Positions 5,193-40,648 of a stretch of DNA of 64,000 nt are shown here, piece after piece. The position numbers and the translations under genes are program-made. Under the pieces are notes generated by a model. It worked only from the letters and a program-made list of their open reading frames with translations. It was not told where the DNA came from and ran no database searches. The number at the start of each line of letters is the position of its first letter. Within the stretch, counting starts at the first letter, position 1. Source of the DNA: Gymnopus androsaceus JB14 (Eukaryota > Basidiomycota > Agaricomycetes > Agaricales > Omphalotaceae). Location: positions 282,343-346,342 of the forward strand of contig ML769410.1 in NCBI GenBank assembly GCA_009733575.1. Reading direction: 5' to 3'.

Positions 5193-5786
5193 AGTATACA
5201 GTCAATGATATGGTGAGTATCTGCTTTTGCATATCTGTAGACTATTCAATAGGCCTCTTGAATCCTAGATCATGCCATACCAATACCTGAAGATCAGTTA
5301 TGATTTGCTGATCACTTGGTGAATTGAAGTAGACTATCTATGCTGCAACCCTTGCTTCAATGGGTTCAATTCTATGAGTGGCCCTGCTTTTGCTCAGCTA
5401 CACTACATCTTCACAACCATTGTTGGTGGGAAAACATACCCCATTGCATTTATTCAGCCTTACAGAACTTTTCCAATTAACTGACAAAGTTACCCTGACA
5501 AAGACCTTGGGCTTCTTTGACTCCATAAAGAGATGAAAACTCCGTTTATTTCAGTTCATACATGGAGCAGTTGTTGTTCCAACAGATTTGTCTGATGAGG
5601 CCATTGTTTGGGATGCTTTGGATGGAGACATTTTTCTCCAAGTCCTCAAGCATTTCCCTGGCTATACTACTGGCTTTTGCAAGACTTAATTATTGCCCTG
5701 CAGTTGCTTGAGGGACTTGAAAAATTGGTTTGTCATTTTCCAAGGATGCTTACAGCTGAGCTAGAGAGTCCTGATATTACTCCAAA

Positions 5787-23359: not shown

Positions 23360-24515
23360 ATAGGAGCGATGTTCAGGTAACATCCTACCCAAGCCCGAAC
23401 CCGAGCTCCTCTCCTCCTCATCATCACCAATAGCCTAAATCTCTCAGATTCAGAAGCCTCCAATTCGGAACACCAAGAATGCGTGCGGTGGAGCAGGGAT
23501 CAACCCGAAGGAAGAAGAGGAGTTATTCAGGGTCTCTTTCTTCCCATTGGCCTCGTCTTTCTTGCTATCGGGCTTTGGTGCACGGATGCAGTTGCTGATA
23601 TGTTTGACAATGTCCAGAAGACTACGAATGAGAGTGCTTCTCTGAATGAGCAAAGTTGGTCACTCAGTTCCAGATTCAACGGTGAGAGGAAGGCAGTGTG
23701 ATGAATTTCATGTTCATCACAGGGTGCAGGAAAAAAAAAGGGGTTGTGCATGGAACGATAGAGGCCAACAAACGAAATGAGTGAAAAAAAAACTTACCAT
23801 ATCAACCAATGCCTTTACCCCAATTGCAGCAACATCAAATGACATTGAATGTGGGAGCTTTATGCCATCGGGATACACCTTCAATTGACAGCTGATTGCG
23901 AAATTGGAGAGCAGTTTTCAAAAAATGCTCCTCGGTGATGGAATTTATGAGCAAACAACGATTCAATACCAGGGCTCCACTCCTGAGGAGCTCGAAGCTT
24001 CGCTGGTCACTGGCAGCAAACAAGAATCCTGAATAGTGCGAAATTGAAAACGCTCTCCGATTTTGCAATCAGCTGGAAATGTCCCGTGTTACAATGTATG
24101 CCTAAGAAGAGAAAGAAGAACTTGTGTTAACCCATGTCCTGTTCGAACTCGAACAAAAAAAGAGCCGAAAAAATACACACCTCAGAGTCTGGTAGCCCTA
24201 CTTTTCCCCAACCCGTCATACCTTCACCCAGGTGAGATCACTCTCACTGCCCGGCAGGAGCCCACCAATGGCTGGGATGTCTGTGCCCACGTTCTGGTTA
24301 TTGTTGCCATATCCACAAGTATACATCTCGCGGTTACCAGAAAAATATATGATCGGAGTCAGGCTGGAACCTGCGCCGGTAATGAGCCTTCATATCGGCG
24401 GCCCCATGGTGCTGAACAAAGAGAGAGGTCGGAGAAGGGAGAGAGTCTTCTATGACATTTGAGTTGATATTCCTGGGGTGGGTATGAGTGGCGATGGCGA
24501 CGTACTTGCTATGTA
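23360..24515 (-). other. Unresolved minus-strand coding-like fragments
   Basis: Several minus-strand frames look partly exon-like: 23835-24068 with ISCQLKVYPDGIKLPHSMSF (in a neighbouring frame) followed by a gtaagt-type donor, and around 24230-24340 with MYTCGYGNNNQNVGTDIPAI. I could not join them into one gene or recognise a family. They may be a decayed gene disrupted near the Tc1/mariner insertion that begins at 24516. Confidence 0.25.
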
Positions 24516-24607
24516 TGTAAGTGACCGGACATACCGTGCCAGCCAAGCACAATCACTTTTCGAGCTCAAAAATTGGTGTTTTTGCATACAAAAAATGTAA
24601 CTAAGTA

Positions 24608-25094
24608 TCAGTATTGAGTGTGCCCACCATTAGCTTCAATTCCGGCCTGTACCACCTGTGGCATGCGGTCAATAAATGCGTTGAATTCATCAAAGTCCAA
24701 ATTTTCCCAAACCTCTAAAATTGCATTGCACAGCTTGTCGTATGTCGAAGGTTGAGTCTGAAGGTCACGAATATGCTTCTTGACAACATCCCACAAAGGC
24801 TCAATAGGGTTGAGATCTGGAGAAGAGGGTGGATGGGGAAAAAGAGGGATACCATGTTCATGGAACCATTTGACTGTGCTCTTCGCATGATGCGCACACG
24901 CGCCATCCTGCTGAAAAATGAAATTTGGCCTGTCCTGGATCATCAGGTCACAAAACTCGAGCAAGGCACCATCGAGAGCCTGTTCTCAATAGTGTTCTGC
25001 ATTAAAACTACCACCTTTTCTGCCAGGATATTCCAAAATGACAAGTGGGCCTCTGGCACCTTTCATGATGCATCCCCAGATCATGCAGCGTACA
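24608..25094 (-). pseudogene. Tc1/mariner transposase, C-terminal half
   Basis: Encodes the second and third catalytic acids of the DDE domain: FQQDGACAHHAKSTVKWFHE (second Asp) and PPSSPDLNPIEPLWDVVKKH (third acidic residue region). Just upstream on the same strand is MIWGCIMKGARGPLVILEYPG. A TGA stop at 24986-24988 breaks the frame between these parts, so the copy is dead even apart from the insertion. The break with the N-terminal half coincides with the 7-bp duplication GCGTACA at 25088-25094. Confidence 0.9.
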
Positions 25095-25471
25095 CAGCCA
25101 TAGCAGCTAGTGATCACATCAACTTGGGGAATTGCCCTAAGTCTGATATGATCAGCAAGGGGAATTGCCCAAGCCCCAAATATAGGGCAGCTGGTGAAGA
25201 TACAAGACCTTGGTCAACTGCCCAAGAGAACCATCTGGCATATTTATCAGCACTGATAACCCAAACGCACTCATTGGTATCATTATCAATTACCGTGCTC
25301 CGTGCTGAGACAGATGGACTGGACCATCTTACGGATCTGGCCTGGAACGGTACTTGATCTGAGTAAAATAGTGGCAATGTGAAGGTTTGAACCCTCATTG
25401 CTTTCAGTATTAATCTCATGATACCTAGGTGAAAACGGGACGCGCTAACAACTATGCCATTTGACCAATAC
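25095..25471 (-). repeat. Left inverted arm with tRNA-like head
   Basis: Similar throughout to the reverse complement of 31509-31886, with roughly one difference every five to ten bases. Read on the minus strand from 25471 it begins GGTCAAATGGCATAGTTGTT, like the 5' end and A-box of a tRNA gene, and about 60 nt later has GGGTTCAAACC, like a B-box. The similarity between the arms stops just outside this tRNA-like start. Two GGGGAATTGCCC-type words recur near the outer end. Confidence 0.8.
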
Positions 25472-26269
25472 TTAACTTGCAATGTCATCAGACTATAGCA
25501 CCTTCGTGACCAAAAGTATATATTATTATTTATTAATAAATTGAAAATAAATTGATAAATGTTATTATAAAATTTGGAATGACCTGCGGCATGTTGGAAG
25601 CTTTGAACAAGCCCAATCATGTATATTCCCTTCAACTCGCTGCTAAAGCGAACAAAATATGTACCACAGCTCAAGGATCCTCAACCGTTGGTCAATCTTA
25701 TCCAGTCTACGAAGGACCCTCGTCTGCTGTCTGGGATCGGCCTCTGCACGTTGGCTCCGGGACCACTGATCCCGAGGATTGGACCTCAGACTTTATTCTC
25801 TCCGGTCATTGACCTGCTGGTTACTTCCCCGATCCTAATAGTGTTGGCAAAGAGAGAAGTCGAGAAGAAGAGTATGGAGTACAAGTGGCTAACTCGAACG
25901 CTCCTCGAGCGCAGCCATACTTGAACAACATAAGAGTTTTGCTTTCCGTGTGCATGTCGTATGGAAAGTGAGGAAACAAAAGATTTTGGCACATTTTATG
26001 CATGCACCTTCCCGGATATCGCAGATGCTACGTTACATGTGAGTATAAAACTTAGGAGTTAGCAGCAAAGACAAACCAGTTTCCACCGTTGTTTCGATAT
26101 TTTCTCTACACCAGTACTGGCTCCATGAAAAATGTCGTTGGCTATGCGTGTTTCTGGGCCCATGTTGCACAAAGGAGATACACCCATTCTCCGTGGATGG
26201 GTTGCTTGAAAGCTCCTCCTTCATTGCGCCCTAATATGCTAGACTGAATCATTTCATGAGCAACCGACA
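25472..26269 (+). other. Interior of the composite element, unrecognised frames
   Basis: A + strand frame at 25619-25924 has an exon-like stretch (LKDPQPLVNLIQSTKDPRLL, then hydrophobic residues and LVTSPILIVLAKREVEKK) that may be another captured gene piece, but no family is recognised. The remainder is AT-rich. Confidence 0.3.
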
Positions 26270-27810
26270 CTATGAATACGCGGAATGATGTACGACAGGA
26301 TTCTCCAGAGAAACAGTACATTTCAAATTTGGCAGAGCATGGCGCTCTGGCAGTTTCTGCAAACGTCTGGCCCTTTCGGAGTGACTTCTCGAGAGACCAC
26401 GGGTGTGATTACATTTGAGTGGATGGGCCTCTACATTGCTGGATGAGGAAGTTGCTTTCGGCATATCAACGCTGAATGGCGTGAACGGAGGTAAAGCATG
26501 GAAAGGGACGAGGTTGGCTTCGCTTCTGCGAGCCAAAGGAAGGGAGCCAGATACTTTTTTCCTTGACCAGAAGGAAGATCTGCAGGTCAACTTGTTTGGT
26601 GTATGATTGACTGTCTCGGGCACTTCCTTCTCTACCTCCTTTCCTTTCCGTATCACATCTACTGGACCAAAATTGAGGAAGCCTGCAGGCCCCAAGGAAA
26701 GCCCGCGGTTCCTTCTCTGATTTGGTACATCTGACGGAGCAGACTGTGCTACAGCAGAGACCGCTCGCTTGGTACGGAGGGCTGCGTCCCTTTGAGGCTG
26801 GGTAATATCTAATGCCGACGGCGTGGATGCGAATGCGATGCTATTAATTTCGGAAGACGATGAAGAGGCGGAAGCCTGAGGAAGAACGTGAGGGAGACTA
26901 ATACCTAGCAATGCCTGCGCGAGAGCACTTGTTGGTGAGGGCCTAGTATATCCTCCGAAGGAAAGTCTCCCAGAGCTAGAGGGAGGAAATAACGTGTCCT
27001 CTCTGGAATTCCTTCTCGAAGTTTCGCACGTGAACTGGACCCAGGAGTTGGAGGTAAATCCTTCTCTATTTTGAGCATAGAGCTCCGATCCCATCATGCT
27101 AGTCACAGGTGCTTGGACCGGAGCCTGAGCTGCGCCCCAAGGCGATGCGGTTTGAGCAGTAGCACCAGAGAATTGACCGAAACCATTACCCATGACAGGC
27201 GCTGACTGAGCCGGAGGAGTAGAGAAAAGGGAAAGGATGTCTTGCTTGACATCCTTTCTCTGCTCAGGAGAAGTGGATTGGGAGTGGTTGTTCGTGGTCA
27301 CGATTGGGGGTGCATGGAAGTCAAGGGAAAAGAGGTCATTCTGAGGTGCAGGAGCAGGGGCAGGGGAGCAGGAGCTGCAGTTTGCAGAGCAGCTGGCACT
27401 ACGCCCACTGGCCTATCTACAATACTGGCAGAAAGCAGTTGATGTTTAGTGGATGTAGGAGCCGTAGAACGTGCAGCGCTAAAGCTACTTGTTTGAGCGT
27501 GAGTCGCTCGTGTAGGAGTAGGAGCTTGCTGTACTGGTGTGGCAGGTGCTGATGGCGGTTCGGGCACTGAGGCTACGCCGGTGGAAAGTACAGAGGGGTC
27601 GGTAGGAGGAGGACCTTCTAGTGCCCATTGGCGTGATTCATATTTTGAGTGAATAAACGAGTCGATTTTACTGCATTAGCATCAAGTTAGCTTTAGATTC
27701 ATATAGCATACGTGCGACGCACTGTTCTGGTGGAATATGGCCTTGCTTCAGATGGGCTTCCCTGTAAAGATTGGCCAGACGATTGCCCCACTTTTGAATA
27801 GACTGGAATC
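26270..27810 (-). pseudogene. Truncated ArfGAP (SMAP/Age2-type) gene fragment, chimeric at its 3' end
   Basis: Read on the minus strand: an exon at about 27730-27806 encodes IQKWGNRLANLYREAHLKQG followed by HIPPEQ, the end of an ArfGAP domain; the next exon encodes KIDSFIHSKYESRQWALEGP followed by PPTDPSVL, then a Pro/Ala-rich linker; then NDLFSLDFHAPP and KQDILSLFSTPPAQ, the short motifs typical of fungal SMAP/Age2 proteins. The CX2CX16CX2C zinc finger that should precede IQKWG is absent upstream. There is a frame change in the linker near 27360, and beyond the Age2-like motifs the 343-codon frame 26270-27301 continues into unrelated Ser/Arg-rich sequence. So the copy lacks its catalytic region and looks spliced together with another gene. 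Confidence 0.75.
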
Positions 27811-27814
27811 CAGA

Positions 27815-28078
27815 TTAGACAATGTACAAGTAGCAGTTCATCTGCGTCATTGAGCCTATTAGATGTCGCATTGTTGCTGAATGCTGGTAATGGAGCTTCC
27901 ACAGCGGCAAGGAAAAGAAATGCGTCGTTGTCTGCGTGGTTGTCGTTACAACTTCTGTAGTTGTAACCGTCATTTCTGCAAAAAGGAGAGGCGAAGGATT
28001 GTTTCCTTGTAGGAAGGAGGCGGCGGATGGGCAGAATTGTGCTTTGAAGAAAAAGGATTCAGCCCAACCATGGAGCAA
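27815..28078 (-). pseudogene. Start of a second captured gene (Thr-rich N-terminus)
   Basis: A minus-strand frame with ATG at 27972 and MTVTTTEVVTTTTQTTTHFF then SLPLWK. Thr-rich openings of this type occur at the start of a fungal hypothetical protein I remember but cannot name. It directly adjoins the broken ArfGAP fragment on the same strand, where the ArfGAP zinc-finger exon should be, so it looks like a foreign 5' end placed in front of it. Function unknown. Confidence 0.35.
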
Positions 28079-29301
28079 GATGAATTTCAGTTAAGAAATC
28101 CGCTAAGAAATATAAGTTGATGCTTTCTCGAGCAGAGTGAGCTTGCACGCACATTGCTCATCCATATCCCAGTAGCTGTATGAGGCCTTGTAGCAGCAAT
28201 GGCAAATTAGAATGGAATGGAAGGGTGGTTGGGCTGTCATTCGGAATCGGAGTGATAGAAATGTTGTCGCTGTGGTAGAACGAAAGGAAGAAGGCAGCGT
28301 GAGAATGCGTTGGACAACGGGCGCTATGTCCACGATCATCGTTCAGCATGGCTCACCAAGTACAAAGATGACTCTTGATAGCTCTCGAACCCACCGGATA
28401 TTGTTCCTAGTGGTGTTTCACATAATCTGAGCAAAAACTGCATCAAAATCCAATCAAAATAGCCTGCAATATGATTACATTGCAGAAATGTGTATCTTTA
28501 CTTGAGTCCGCCGTGCATAACAGTGAGCTCAAGGATGGAGAAACTCACGTATTGGCCTCAGCATTTGGGAATAATATATTGGATACTATATAGACGTAAT
28601 TAGTGAAGTTGAAGTTGTTCAGATTAGTCAAACTAACTGGACACGCTTTTACTTACTTTCAAGTAAAGTTAGTATACCGAAGGCACATTAAACAGTGTCG
28701 AGAATCATATCATTGTTCAATAAATGAGATCTTGTTGTATGATATACTTACAGTGTACTTCCTCCTGGTGAACATCAAAATCGAGTGTATACCAGCCCAG
28801 AGCGTTGTTAATTGAGCAGACAAGCCACCCGTGGTGATATTCAAAAGCGTCAGGGGCGTCCTTACCAAATCCAAACTACTTACTATCAAGGGAATTTTGC
28901 TCATTAAACAAGCTTGTAGAATATCAGAGACTCAATAAATTGAATCCCGGTAGGGTCCGGATGGTATCTGATATCATCTTACTGCTTGAGAATGTCGTTT
29001 TGAACGACGAGCTCGAAAGGAACACTCATTAGGCGCCTACGGACCATGTTTCCGAACGTAATTCTTTTGCAATCTCACGGTTGAACTTTGCTCTCAACCA
29101 ACTCTCAATTCAGTGAATCACTACGCAAGACCTCTTTGGGACCATGGTACATGCATTTCACTAGTTTATAATGTTTATTTTGAACTTATTTTCGAATTTC
29201 ATACGCCAATTTTACCGTCCAGCTTGCTTGTATACTCCCTCTACTAGAACTTGTTACAGATTGCATAGACAATTCATCTGCTGAAAATTGACTGAATCGG
29301 T
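28079..29301. other. Interior of the composite element, nothing recognised
   Basis: About 1.2 kb of AT-rich sequence with short frames only, for example 28603-28815. No domain or repeat recognised. Confidence 0.35.
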
Positions 29302-30330
29302 TTGATTTGGATACCAGAACAGCAGCTTCCAATCCCAATTCAACTTCTATGGCTGCTACTACTATTACTACTACCAGAAATACGGCGCCTTCTCTCCAAG
29401 AGGCTTCTCAGCCACCTCGCGCTCTACCCAGTCCTACGACCGCTTCAAGATTCCCATGGTCTCAATCCCAATCTCAATCTCGGCACCTCCGTCCAACGCG
29501 GACTTCAGGTATCCCAATGCTGATGGCGGCATTGGTGATAGTAGCAATGGCCTGAGGAACGACGACATCCGCGGCCAAATGTATACTCCAACTTTGGCGG
29601 ATCTACTTCATGTAGGAATGAGTATGGGCGTAGGAAGGGGTATGGGCTTGGAGTACAGTCCAAGATGGCTCGAGTCCAGCTCGCTTCGTGTTGCTCCTAG
29701 CCAGTTTGGCTATTTCCGAAGCTGAAGCTTGTGCAATGGATATATGGTCTGGTCAATGGGACGACCTGGTCCTCAACATCATTGGTTGCTCACGTGAAGA
29801 ATGTTGTCGTGTCCGAGGCTGGCTAAGCGAAGTGGACACATCCAGCTGCGGAGCCAGAGTCATTGGGCTGGTGGGAAGGTATTTGGTTGAGAGATATGTA
29901 TTTGACCTGGACACGATTATGACCACCTTCACTGAGCTCGATATGTAGGTCAGTCTCAACAAAGCATTCCAGTCCCCATCCTTATAACCCACATCGCATA
30001 CGCCCTCTCCTCTCCCTCCCCCAAAGTCCGAACCCTAGTCTCCTACATCCTCGGCTTTTGTCTATTATCCAACCCCAAGGATTCCATGTCTTCGAGGATG
30101 CAGGCTGAAGAAGCGAAATGGAGAAGCAGAAGCAGACGACCAACGCTTCGTATGTGTCTATCTGTAATTGTTCGCAGATTGTTCGTACCAACCAATGTTA
30201 CAACCACAGCACCGACGGATCAAAATCCAAACCTGGAGGAAGAATCGCAGATCGCATGAAGGCAAAACTCTGGTCCTTCTATATCCATGTCAAAGTCAAA
30301 CACAAGGCTTTCAAAAGACACCGCAGCTAG
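29302..30330 (+). pseudogene. Captured host-gene fragments, one part possibly formin-like
   Basis: Exon-like + strand pieces follow one another with frame changes: a Ser/Asn-rich part around 29456-29725 (GQMYTPTLADLLHVGMSMGV), an acidic part at 29688-29948 (SEAEACAMDIWSGQWDDLVL), and at about 29960-30110 the sequence ITHIAYALSSPSPKVRTLVS then YILGFCLL, which resembles the armadillo-repeat GTPase-binding region of fungal formins. The formin match rests on one motif only. No intact gene can be assembled. Confidence 0.35.
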
Positions 30331-31508
30331 TCCGAATCTGTTTAGCAGTCCCAGTCCGAATACCCTCTCTTTTCCCGAAAGCATCAGCTTCGTCACTGGA
30401 TTCACCTTCATCTTCAGCGCTCTCAACATTAACAGCGTTATCAGCGCCATTGACTGTTCCTGGGTCGCCTGTGGCTCATGTTCCAACATCGTTTTCATCG
30501 TCGTCTGCATTTCCTTGGTCATCAACAGTGATAAACCCTCTCTCTCTCGCTAATCTTATCATCGCTGCGCAAATAATCCTGCCCATCTTCTTCCTCCTCC
30601 TCCCTCTTACCAATTTGACACTGTCTCTGCCCACGACAAATTGTCCTCTACTGCCAGCACCGAAATGATAGCTGGGAACATTGCCATGCACCATGTAGGT
30701 CTAATAAAAACTTACATGATCCCCTGCCACTCCTAATCCTGTATGGCTGACCTTCAATCTACAGATACTCAAACTCCGCTTCTCCTCGGCGCAGTTCTAA
30801 ATCAACTCCATTGCCTCAATCCACGGTCACTCATGCTTTTTACTGCGTGCAGGCATAATTTCACTCCCACAATGAAGGGTACAAGTGACTTCGTCGTTGC
30901 TTTATCAGCCGATGGAGAGCGTCACATCCTTGTTGACCCTTCACCTATCTCCGCACCTCATCCAGTGCCCTTCTCGGCTTCGCAAAAAGCACCTCCGCAT
31001 CTTTACTTGAAACTGGAGCTGGGGCTGGAGTGCAGCCTCGCACGTCCTCGATGCTGTCTGGTGAGCTACTCAACATGGGTCGCTCGGTCTTCAGCGAGGT
31101 GGAAAAAAACCAGGGGGGTTCCTATTACGTGCAGCACAGTGAGTAGCTTCGTTAACATCTCTCTATCGACCTATTCCTGATTAGTTCTCCGCTAGTTCTC
31201 GCACATGGTTCTGATAAGCACGGACCATCTGATCACTGGACTGCCAGATTACGCTAGTATTTGAGTTTGTCTCTGGCGTTGAGCATAGGATCTGGTGCAA
31301 GCAGAGATGAGGCTTGTGAATATAAGGGTGGGCCATAGAAACTAATCAACATTAAATCAGCCTTTTTGATATACAGCGTCGAGTCCAAGACATATATTTT
31401 GAATAAGTAATGAAATCAATCAGTAATTAAATAATAGTGTATATTATTAATATATTATTATACCACGCATGATTCTAGCTGTGATAGATCAATTACGCCC
31501 CACAATAT
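30331..31508 (+). other. Interior of the composite element, unrecognised frames
   Basis: Open frames occur on both strands (30168-30668 +, 30220-30525 -, 30743-31180 +), low in complexity and Ser/Leu-rich. The last one has a TISAPHP-like, ordinary protein composition but no recognised family. From about 31370 the sequence is very AT-rich, mirroring the AT-rich segment next to the left arm. Confidence 0.3.
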
Positions 31509-31886
31509 GTATCGGTCAAATGGCAAACATGTTAACACGTCCCGTTTCTATGCGTAGATCACGAGGTTCATATCGGAAGCGCTGAGGGTTCTAATCTTTG
31601 TGCAGTCAATATTTTACTCGGGTCAAGCACCGTCCCAGGCCAGATCCATAAGGAGGTCCGGCCCATCCATCTTATCACGGAGGACGGTAATTGATGATGA
31701 TTTAATTGCAATGGTCCGGATTATCAGTGTTGATAAATATGCCAGATGATCCCCTTGGGTATTTGCCCAAGGGTTGTATCCCTGTCAACTGCCCTATATT
31801 CAGGCCTTGGGCAACTACCCTTGCTGATCACATCAGACTTCGGGCAGTTCACCAAGGCTGATGTGATCAGGTAGCTGCTACAGGTG
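31509..31886 (+). repeat. Right inverted arm with tRNA-like head
   Basis: Inverted partner of 25095-25471. Read on the + strand it begins ATCGGTCAAATGGC, has a degraded A-box region (TGGCAAACATGTTAACACG) and a B-box-like GAGGGTTCTAATC about 60 nt later, and ends GGTAGCTGCTACAGGTG next to the duplicated GCGTACA. Confidence 0.8.
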
Positions 31887-32471
31887 GCGTACAGATGACT
31901 GAGTGAGCTTTGGAACACAACAATCATCGAGTAGCTCCTCGCCAGGCCACCTGGTAACCCAAATCCGACCCTTGTTTTTGCCCAAAACCATGTACGCTTC
32001 ATCGGACCAAACAACATTTTCCCAATCTTTTGAAGACATTTTTGAATGCTCCTTTGCCCATGCAAGTTGCTTTTCTTTAGTAGCGGTGCTCAAGTATGGG
32101 ACCTTTTTGGCAACTCGATGATGATAACCTTGCTCTGCGAGAACATTTCTGACCAAATTCCGACTGCTCTGAGGTTCATGCTCAGAACCAATTTCCTGCA
32201 GTGGTTTTTGACAATTTTGGACATCAGTTGCCACAATATTCTCTTTATCCTCATCAGTGAGCTTCGAGGGACGTTCAGAGCGAGCGAGATTTGAAGTTGA
32301 ACCAGTTTCCTGGTACTTTTTCCAAATATCGAAGCCGGTTGATCGGGGAATATCATGCAGTTGAGCTGCTTTCGCAATGTTTCCTATGGCTTCCACTGAG
32401 CCAACAAACCAATTTTTGGTGGGAGAGTCAAGCTGACGACAAGATGTCTTATGCTTAATAGCTCGGGGCAT
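31887..32471 (-). pseudogene. Tc1/mariner transposase, N-terminal half
   Basis: Open from ATG 32471 on the minus strand to the break. It encodes two helix-turn-helix regions (EAIGNIAKAAQLHDIPRSTG and the ERPSKLTDEDKE linker region) and the first catalytic Asp in WENVVWSDEAYM, followed by GRIWVTRWPGEELLDDCCVP and KLTQSSV. The break is at the 7-bp duplication. Read across the nested block, the codons before it and after it (in the left half) join in frame without any loss, which shows a clean insertion. Confidence 0.9.
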
Positions 32472-32529
32472 GTAATGGTTGAGAGTAGCATGTATATTAA
32501 TACGAATATGCTATGTCTGGTCACTTACG

Positions 32530-33135
32530 TACATAGCGAGTAGATGCGGAGGACTAAGAGTGATTAAATTCCCACTCCTGCCTATCGTTCCCTTGTCTTT
32601 TGTATCCACATCGATGGTATTCGTACCGGAGCTCGGGCTAGAGTTTGGATTCAACAACCCACCAGCGGCAACCTGGACAAGTTTGGAAACGTCCTACGAT
32701 TTAGCGGGGTATTCTGTGCTAAATCTCGTCTTTCTGTCATGGGTCCGCTTGTAATTCAGGTCTGGCGGACGATGAGAAGGGAATGGGTTCCTTCTTCAAA
32801 GATCTTTAAGTAATAGAGCACTGGTAATGGAGTGAAGCAATTTCAGTACCAAATTTGGCGAGAAAAAAGCGCAGTATATATACCTTTTCAGAGGAAATCC
32901 CTAGCACACTGTGTCTCAAGTGCGCTGGTGTTGGTATCGTTGATCGCAGTCCCAATTTCTACGCTATCCGTTCCAATGGCACCGAATGCATGTCACCGTT
33001 AAGGCATGAAGCAGGAAGGGAAGGGAAATAGAGTTGAGGCTTGTATGGGGGGCCATCGTTGTCATTGCAAGCATTCAAATGGGACTTGGGATGGTTGAAA
33101 GATTGAAGGTAGAATGGTATTTGTATCACACTGGA
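32530..33135. other. Gap without recognised gene
   Basis: About 600 bp between the Tc1/mariner end and the foldback element; no coding sequence or repeat recognised. Confidence 0.45.
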
Positions 33136-38182: not shown

Positions 38183-40648
38183 CCATTTCATTGGTGAATA
38201 CAAATGGAGTTGACATTATGAACAACGCTCTGCTGGAGAGTTGAAAACGCCAATATGCTGGCACGAATAAAAAATGAGGCAACATAATTAAGACGCCTTT
38301 AGGTTTATATACTTAACACCATTGAATGCGGAGCTGGGACAATCAAGAGCGTTGCGAAACAGAGCTACCAACTCACTCCAAATCACGGATCATAACACAG
38401 CTGCGACTGGCTCCACACAGAAGCGAGTATCGTAAGTCGCTGGGTTACCGTGAACTACGGTAACTGCTCCTGTGCACATAGAACCCAATCGGACTTAACC
38501 GTAATCTGGAAGTGGCCAGTTTGATGTTAATGGAGTTCATCATGTGTAAGGGTATTTTGTCTCGACTCTCATGGCGAGCTAAAATTCCCGTTTTGAATGG
38601 AAAAACTTCTCCCACTGCAGTACATTGTTTGTGCAGTTTGTCCCTCCGACTCCCAGTGGCATAGTGTACTAATTCGACCATTTGTTCACAGTGACCTGTG
38701 ACGGGTCCGGTTAAGAATTTTGCGAGGAACATCAAGGATGAAAGAGAAATGATTAAGAATTTCCCCAAGACGAGAGAATGGAGAGAAAAGTGCTCATTTG
38801 GCGGAGTAACAAGAAATACAAGACAATGCTAAATACCGGAAGAAAAGCCTGAGTGGGTGGGGGTAAAGGAGATGTACGGGTATTTAATCTTGAGTGATGC
38901 TATATATAAACACCTCATAAGTATATGTGGGAATTAATCCTTCGAGATCTAAAAGTTGTATGCGGAGCGATGAGACGCATATCTGCGTATGGATTAGTAT
39001 ACATGACCTGTGATAGGAACATGCTCTGCCTTATTTATTTATTTAATTTTCAACTACAATTTTCTGTGTTCCAAGCCAAATCGACCATCGACAGAGCACT
39101 GTCAATGCATTCTTTTGCAAATTTTTGAGGGGACCTGAAGATTTTATTTTGTTTTGGTAGTAACAGTGTTCGCGACTCTCAGTGATCTGTGACCGGCTGT
39201 TCATTCTGGGCGGCCGTCAGCCCATTAACCCATGAGTGAATAAACGGTTAAACGCGGCTATAAAACGTATATAGAAATATGTAGTTGTAACAACATGATC
39301 TTAGATCAATCGTCTGGAGCGATTACCTTGCAGACATCGTGATAAGTGATAAGCAGATGCAAAAGTTACATGTTATATATAGCCACCTTTAGGTTCCGCG
39401 ATTTGTGGAGTGGCAAGATCTGCTTGCCACCTGCCTCTTTACTGTAATGACTGCTCCCGGTTTGACCAAACTTCTTCGTAGCATCATGAAACAATCAGTG
39501 GAAGTGATGCACCGTGATTTGCGGAATCAGAGTTGGCAAAGGTATGAGAATATGCCATCCTCGCCCCATACACTTTCCATGTACGTATGAAGAAATCGCA
39601 GGTTGCATAGCTATATACATGCCGGAGTGAATTTTCCGTACCTACTTATTGAAGTTACCATATTACATCCATACATTGCTGATCGTAGGTATCCATCGAA
39701 GATTTAAAGCACATCGTGCGTAGGGGGTAATGTCAACTACTTATTAAGATCTGCCTATCTGACATGCACCCAGTCCTCCCCCCCCCCCCCCCCCCCTCTT
39801 CCCTACATAATAGTTGATATTTCGTCTTTCTCGGTTGAGCACCCCTTGGTGTACCCCTGGTAAGCTAGACTAGTGCCACATACAACTGCTCACCAGCCTG
39901 AAACCTAAATCAACGATGTTTAGATGTATATCTAGTAGCAATACACGGACGTCGGAACTGCAGAAACAGAAAGTCAGAATCAAAAGTGAAAATGAATTAA
40001 ATTGTTGTGAAACGTACATTCCGGGAGATCGTGTACAACCAACGTACAGCCTGCTTACGACTAACCAGAAACATGAGCAGCCTTGACATGGACCGGTGTG
40101 ATGTTGACGGCACATGAAGATACCGCTTATGCATTAGGAGCGCAAACTTGTGGTCAAAAACATAGTACAGTCTGCTTCGTGTTTGAGAAGGCGACCTAGT
40201 TGATCGAGTATTTACAGCTCAGGCGTAGCTTGAACAGCTGTAGCCGGATATTTATCTCCGCCGAGTAAGAGTGCTCTGAGATAAAAACAGGTGCGTTCCA
40301 AGTTGCGACCGTGCCTCGACGGCTTAATCTGGTGGACGAAATCTTGAGCTTCTTCTGAAGATCCGAATCTTAATCAACATGCACATGCGCGGAGGAGGCT
40401 GAGTTTAATCTAACCTCAAATTCATTGTTTTGCCCTCGCACCGGCAGTTCCCACTGGAACAATCATTACTCCACCTTAGCTCCTGTATCAACTGATCTTT
40501 GCGGGAACTGATTAGCCTGAGATTGTTCAAACACATTGTGGAGTGGACAGTGGTACACCGTTCCCAATTCAGCCAAAAGCCAGAAATATATAATAGTACC
40601 ACGTCAAAATCGCATTGGTATCGAGCCCTGCTCTTTCTTGTCAAGGCT
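38183..40648. other. Intergenic region with poly-C tract, no gene seen
   Basis: About 2.5 kb between two divergently oriented genes. A minus-strand frame at 38445-38768 begins with a hydrophobic stretch (MGKFLIISLSSLMFLAKFLT) but has no supporting features. A run of 20 C at 39778-39797 is the only strong landmark. AT-rich AGAAATATATAATAG near 40585-40597 may be the core promoter of the amino-acid transporter gene. Confidence 0.45.
39778..39797 (+). repeat. Poly-C (G) tract of 20 bases
   Basis: Twenty consecutive C bases, length as given in the assembly. It can form a G-quadruplex on the other strand and is prone to length error. Confidence 0.95.

Follow-up and report, generated by a model that had tools for sequence, protein, structure and literature searches.

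How did a 6,792-bp block filled with pieces of host genes come to lie inside a mariner transposon of the mushroom Gymnopus androsaceus JB14? We analyzed the 64,000-bp stretch of DNA that contains it (the window; locus G000:C28:282343-346342) together with related loci of the same genome. The best explanation, to which we assign a probability of roughly 0.8, is that the block is a Kyakuja-like, non-autonomous element of the KDZ superfamily, inserted into a mariner copy and carrying layered host-gene cargo acquired by break repair. An earlier reading of the window from its letters (the sequence-only reading) had proposed a gene-carrying element with terminal inverted repeats (TIRs) inside a mariner; our analysis supports that proposal and adds the autonomous partner, a KDZ transposase found on C41 and C324. 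The layered cargo of the locus offers clues to how TIR transposons capture the DNA of unlinked genes.

An element inserted into a mariner copy

The outer parts of the locus are as follows.

24503-24504: TA target duplication of the mariner, left copy (right copy 32541-32542); the inverted repeat reaches here, and TA stands at the same place in three other copies
24505-25094, minus strand: left part of the mariner, with the 3' half of the transposase (DDE_3); its last 7 bases are GCGTACA (25088-25094)
25095-31886, no strand assigned: non-autonomous KDZ (Kyakuja-like) element, 6,792 bp, 5'-CAGCC...CAGGTG-3', splitting the mariner
31887-32540, minus strand: right part of the mariner, with the 5' half of the transposase (HTH_Tnp_Tc3_2); it begins with the second GCGTACA (31887-31893)

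The matches to DDE_3 and HTH_Tnp_Tc3_2 in the two transposase halves confirm that the split host element belongs to the Tc1/mariner family, and it has the TA duplication, inverted ends and DDE transposase of that family. Its terminal inverted repeat spans 24503-24533 and 32512-32542, and the start CTYGCTATGTA beside the TA is common to uninterrupted mariner copies on C240, C203 and C574; we therefore place the TA duplication at 24503-24504 and 32541-32542. The TA-flanked ends seen in the sequence-only reading are thus real, but its positions for them (24516 and 32529) were not: by the inverted repeat and the three other copies, the true ends lie 11 bp further out on each side.

The GCGTACA duplication at 25088-25094 and 31887-31893 is exact, as had been noticed. 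When the flanks are joined and one GCGTACA is removed, the resulting 1,219 bp align end to end with the copies on C240 (94%), C203 (94%) and C574 (92%). A 241-codon open frame spans the break in the joined flanks, which bears out the claim that the codons of the two transposase halves join there in frame; the frame is closed by another in-frame stop, past which 125 further codons follow. This stop lies in the region 24985-24990 (minus strand), away from the insertion site, so the mariner copy has been broken twice over. Together, these findings show that the block inserted into the mariner copy and made a 7-bp duplication on arrival.

Three parts of the inserted element belong to the family as a whole:

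25095-25480, plus strand: CAGCC-side arm, carrying subterminal TGATCACATCA / TTGCCC repeats; this is the long-arm version, 87-88% identical to L021 and L022
28274-29183, plus strand: conserved central block of the family, mostly non-coding, near full length in 14 fetched loci
31495-31886, minus strand: CACCTG-side arm, about 392 bp

The two arms of the window element are inverted relative to each other, with ungapped pieces of 215, 83 and 42 bp at 76-83% identity, or ∼380 bp at 77.6% when gaps are allowed. The inverted arms of ∼378 bp described earlier are therefore present in the window, but they are not the usual form of the family; this long-arm form is shared with L021 and L022, while most family copies have only ∼75-95 bp of similarity between their own two ends and the rest of the CAGCC-side arm differs. 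The left end of the C324 element shows ∼75-130 bp of inverted similarity to the CACCTG arms of other elements. The interior of the window element has no transposase of its own, as had been observed. The element has kept the two family ends and the central block, and, as matches at unlinked loci show, the places of the genes found in larger relatives now hold pieces of unrelated host genes.

A nested cargo, probably captured in layers

The left side of the element holds the following cargo.

25930-26323, minus strand: piece of a PHD-like zinc-finger gene, outer layer, arm side (C124:134695-135099, 85%)
26323-27095, minus strand: piece of an unnamed gene next to pescadillo (the C2 gene), middle layer (C2:618024-618798, 95%)
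27086-27838, minus strand: ArfGAP gene piece without the zinc finger, innermost layer (C98:130758-131511, 97%)
27838-28105, minus strand: continuation of the C2 gene, beginning 34 bp before its putative ATG (C2:617745-618023, 91%)
28105-28168, minus strand: continuation of the PHD gene, outer layer, centre side (C124:134232-134295, 89%), shared with L034
26270-27412, minus strand: 380-codon open frame fusing the ArfGAP and C2-gene frames, without a Pfam domain

The donor genes were named by Pfam or homology for ArfGAP, formin, PHD and carboxypeptidase, and the C2 and C389 genes were judged by open frames alone; one donor we take to be NTO1-like. That C98 carries an ArfGAP gene agrees with the sequence-only reading, which had recognized an ArfGAP without its zinc finger here.

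Read from arm to centre, the pieces are nested as PHD [C2 gene [ArfGAP] C2 gene] PHD, and identity to the donors rises inward, from 85-89% to 91-95% to 97%. Positions 618023 and 618024 of C2 are adjacent, and the ArfGAP piece lies between them, at a cost of 0-8 bp according to the reading of a 10-bp similarity; the PHD-gene layer has lost 399 bp at its junctions with the C2 gene. Two relatives retain uninterrupted PHD-gene DNA of the outer layer: in L033 it crosses the junction on the arm side, and in L034 the one on the centre side (by 19 bp). C2 or C98 DNA occurs in none of the 16 other loci compared, and a genome search with the C2 and C98 pieces, in which the best candidates were scored, matched at the donors only. 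Because of the nesting, the rising identity and the uninterrupted relatives, we infer an order of capture in which the PHD-finger piece would have come first, the C2-gene piece would have entered it, and the ArfGAP piece would have entered that in turn.

Comparable cargo is found elsewhere in the family. Among the five elements whose cargo was searched (the window element, L036, L021, L034 and L031), four have long matches to unlinked loci. L036 carries serine carboxypeptidase DNA of C37 at 97% and then, after a jump of ∼1.77 kb in the donor, at 95%; C897, a sister of L036, shares its flanks (∼96%) and has a different middle. The L021 cargo matches C19 and C187 (85% each), and that of L034 matches C210 (82% and 92%). 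By eye, the L036 copy of the C37 gene retains intron-like GT..AG stretches. These introns point to capture at the DNA level, as in Pack-TYPE elements, and for the same reason we rejected retro-capture. The elements also resemble Pack-TYPE elements in being non-autonomous TIR elements with captured coding DNA from host loci.

How, then, was one piece placed inside another? The ArfGAP DNA lies between adjacent C2 bases, the cargo junctions share 1-10 bp, and introns are kept; these features lead us to favor copying during break repair. Ectopic host DNA would have been copied by template switching, at 1-10 bp of shared sequence, while a break inside the element was being repaired.

The main rival concerns the same element and takes the route of Pack-CACTA: two elements insert close together, an aberrant excision deletes the ends that face each other, and the resulting hybrid carries the intervening DNA; repeated, the process nests. 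This route has been proposed for plant Pack-TYPE elements (PMC8903248, PMC13317346), and the chimeric L037, which shows elements exchanging parts, would suit it, as would the 399 bp lost from the PHD layer at the C2 junctions, since truncation would allow such a loss. However, this route could set the C98 piece between adjacent C2 bases, where 0-8 bp are missing, only if truncation had struck the same site twice independently, which speaks against it for this last layer; and the C37 and C389 donors each gave separated, collinear pieces, though later deletions could produce these as well. We regard tandem insertion as considerably less probable than break repair.

The remaining cargo of the window element lies mainly on the right side, and the pieces on both sides match unlinked loci.

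25624-25921, minus strand: cargo 89% identical to C124:144622-144912, a part of which recurs at C56 (91%) next to a retroelement-like frame; probably repeat-derived
29277-29648, plus strand: cargo to which one locus contributes three collinear pieces (C389:37441-37687, 38228-38314 and 39820-39866; 81-91%)
29650-29918, tentatively plus strand: cargo 75% identical to C193:55658-55942
29925-30085, plus strand: formin gene piece (C4:240584-240749, 90%), with Drf_GBD in the donor
30087-30545, plus strand: gene piece whose donor matches rhodanese weakly, below the cut-off (C458:28806-29276, 79%)
30315-30872, plus strand: stretch in common with another element of the family (C42:139952-140494, 89%)
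30874-31494, plus strand: stretch in common with copies of the family on C320 (93%)

The Drf_GBD domain of the C4 donor confirms what had been called a possible formin piece.

Orientation and fate of the captured pieces

All eight donors whose direction could be judged (C98, C124, C4, C458, C37, C2, C389 and the HSP70 piece of L033, a match of 45 residues) are read outward from the centre. Six of these directions rest on a domain or homologue (for C458 on the rhodanese match below the cut-off) and two, C2 and C389, on the open frame. A sign test gives ∼0.008 (two-sided) for a pattern that was noticed post hoc in few cases. It is conceivable, and we offer this tentatively, that the family is a dedicated exon-shuffling platform, in which the centre would act as a two-way promoter and source of first exons, breaks at its sides would be repaired with host genes, and pieces inserted in sense would give chimeric transcripts on both sides.

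That selection maintains the cargo as functional genes is improbable. The 380-codon frame does join two captured pieces in their native frames, and the outward reading of the eight judged cases would fit such genes. Yet the 52 substitutions relative to the donors are spread as 13, 17 and 22 over codon positions 1, 2 and 3, both main cargo pieces have single-base frameshift deletions, the tested cargo frames of the window contain no Pfam domain, and the cargo is mostly private to each element. From their substitutions and frameshifts the fragments look like neutrally decaying passengers, and most captured pieces would be expected to decay in this way.

A family with a KDZ transposase partner

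In the genome searches only the best candidates were scored (40 of 76 for the arm, 40 of 91 for the centre and 150 of 335 for KDZ), so that all copy numbers are lower bounds. The arm of the window element has at least 44 matches in the genome. The end patterns occur at 38 sites for the CACCTG end and 19 for the CAGCC end, compared with 0 for a control with reversed patterns. Nineteen end pairs were checked for target duplications: 13 have a perfect 7-bp duplication (the window element, L021, L023, L025, L031, L034, L037, L040, C41, C897, C362, the second C431 element and C42), one matches at 6 of 7 positions (L022), one at 8 of 8 (C324), and four have none. In the control, 0 of 342 cross-pairings of ends gave a perfect 7-bp duplication. 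Ends and central block are common among the elements compared, while the cargo is mostly private or common to few. The search with the arm that had been suggested earlier, for further inverted pairs with other cargo and duplications of 7-8 bp, has thus turned up such a family. L037 is a patchwork of stretches that match L033, L034, L021 and L032/L023, with one switch at the single position 5399; this patchwork implies that elements exchange parts with one another.

The KDZ domain (PF18758) has at least 161 matches in this genome and none in 14 control genomes. Two of these matches lie between the same family ends, in C324:37408-48784 and C41:6313-21832, and the domain was confirmed in both; the two loci are also collinear over the stretch that links the KDZ frame with the CAGCC arm. 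The C41 element combines KDZ, the same ends and a perfect 7-bp duplication. Relatives such as these two would supply transposase in trans to the window element. Because KDZ lies between the same ends, the duplications are 7 bp long and the termini are CA..TG (CAGCC...CAGGTG in the window), we class the family with the KDZ elements of Kyakuja type; because imperfect inverted ends are present, we file it as Kyakuja-like and not as Kyakuja proper. The block in the window is best read as a non-autonomous KDZ element, closest to Kyakuja in termini and duplication length, its subgroup being assigned by these features and not by a tree.

Helitrons are rolling-circle transposons without target duplication or TIRs; since target duplications and inverted ends are present here, we rejected a Helitron. 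A hAT element is a very unlikely alternative: rust hAT7 families also make 7-bp duplications (PMC12730594), but at two loci the transposase between the family ends is KDZ, not hAT, and the sequence from transposase to arm is collinear there (hAT families were outside the genome search). An assembly join or chimeric contig in this draft of 934 contigs deserves almost no credence, given that the 7-bp duplication is exact, that three paralogues have the empty site intact and that the layout recurs on many contigs.

Several observations weigh against the combined reading of a Kyakuja-like KDZ element that gained its cargo by break repair. Neither transposase nor excision was itself observed, and tandem insertion is also able to yield nested layers. 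The end pairs of L028, L033, L036 and L038 lack a duplication, and that of C324 is 8 bp long and not 7. Kyakuja-1_LB and -2_LB have no TIRs (PMC12730594), whereas the ends here are imperfectly inverted. The central block is barely recognizable in C324 (87 bp, 30.6 bits), and from this comparison the descent of the centre from a KDZ element is not firm. As for the cargo, C19 and C210, like C187, are unlinked loci and at most candidate genes, a repeated family also matches parts of the L034 query, and the search with the left cargo of L031 gave no long donor, its matches beyond the arms being short or weak (for example 75% to C193).

Comparison with known systems

Kyakuja elements have 7-bp duplications and CA..TG termini, and KDZ elements have captured a TET/JBP gene (PMC12730594). 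The window element resembles Kyakuja in its 7-bp duplications, its 5'-CA..TG-3' termini and the KDZ transposase of its larger relatives; it differs in lacking a transposase, in its cargo of many partial host genes and in the imperfect inverted repeats of its ends. The KDZ1-KDZ3 elements of Cryptococcus (PMC12810828) are likewise KDZ elements, 9-11 kb long and active, with long TIRs and 4-8-bp duplications, but they are of autonomous type, and host gene fragments are not reported in the accessible parts of that paper. With the plant Pack-TYPE elements (Pack-MULE, Pack-CACTA; PMC8903248, PMC13317346) our element shares the non-autonomous TIR structure, the several host-gene fragments and capture at the DNA level; it is, however, fungal, of the KDZ superfamily, and has a conserved central block and visible nesting. 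Among fungi, gene fragments have been captured by Helitrons of Pleurotus and Fusarium (PMC4289320, PMC5148889), and hAT and Tc1/mariner elements of Pyrenophora tritici-repentis have multiplied host-like genes by transduplication (PMC3538342). In Pyrenophora, one gene was amplified in near-identical copies, beside a transposase in the long form, whereas the cargo here varies from copy to copy. The earlier remark that gene-capturing TIR elements are not commonly described in fungi is therefore fair but not absolute. In the open-licence literature of PubMed Central, as far as its accessible parts go, we found no KDZ element with mosaics of host-gene fragments.

According to a 2026 review (PMC13317346), an undiscovered mechanism for the capture of unlinked genes by TIR elements may exist beside tandem insertion. 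The layers of the present element are legible: relatives without the interruption document the outer step, every layer has its donor locus, and one piece entered between two neighbouring bases. The question of capture thus becomes testable with strains of one mushroom. With this finding, the KDZ superfamily would join the transposons known for mosaic gene capture, and mushrooms would have a DNA-level route to exon shuffling beside Helitrons.

Further features of the family

Of 13 elements, 11 have the central block in the usual direction relative to the ends, and two, the window element and L033, have it inverted; passage through the inverted arms is a possible origin of this inversion (28274-29183; L033:3236-4067). 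We rejected a coding central block, since the lengths of its gaps are mostly not multiples of three (90/601). A short frame at 28960-29032 (plus strand), which starts M(V/I)S and has its stop near ELERN, is present in 10 of 14 centres and may be what is left of a first exon. The centre also recurs in six copies that share the same two endpoints (query 119-596, 73-77%; C32, C223, C163, C14, C192:113100 and C104:114248), as if another derivative element used that part.

At C2:982777-983076, the patterns of both family ends occur at a distance of just 300 bp, which suggests a miniature copy. The 255-codon frame of L021 has no homologue at E 0.001. A Pfam search with 60 frames from the cargo and its neighbourhood yielded no DDE transposase; its reverse transcriptase and integrase matches fall in L026 and, by elimination, probably L024. 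At L026:2541-5042, within the 16.8-kb C42 element, an 834-codon frame with reverse transcriptase and protease is a nested retroelement; the frames of L026, and probably those of L024, represent retroelement DNA inside or between elements.

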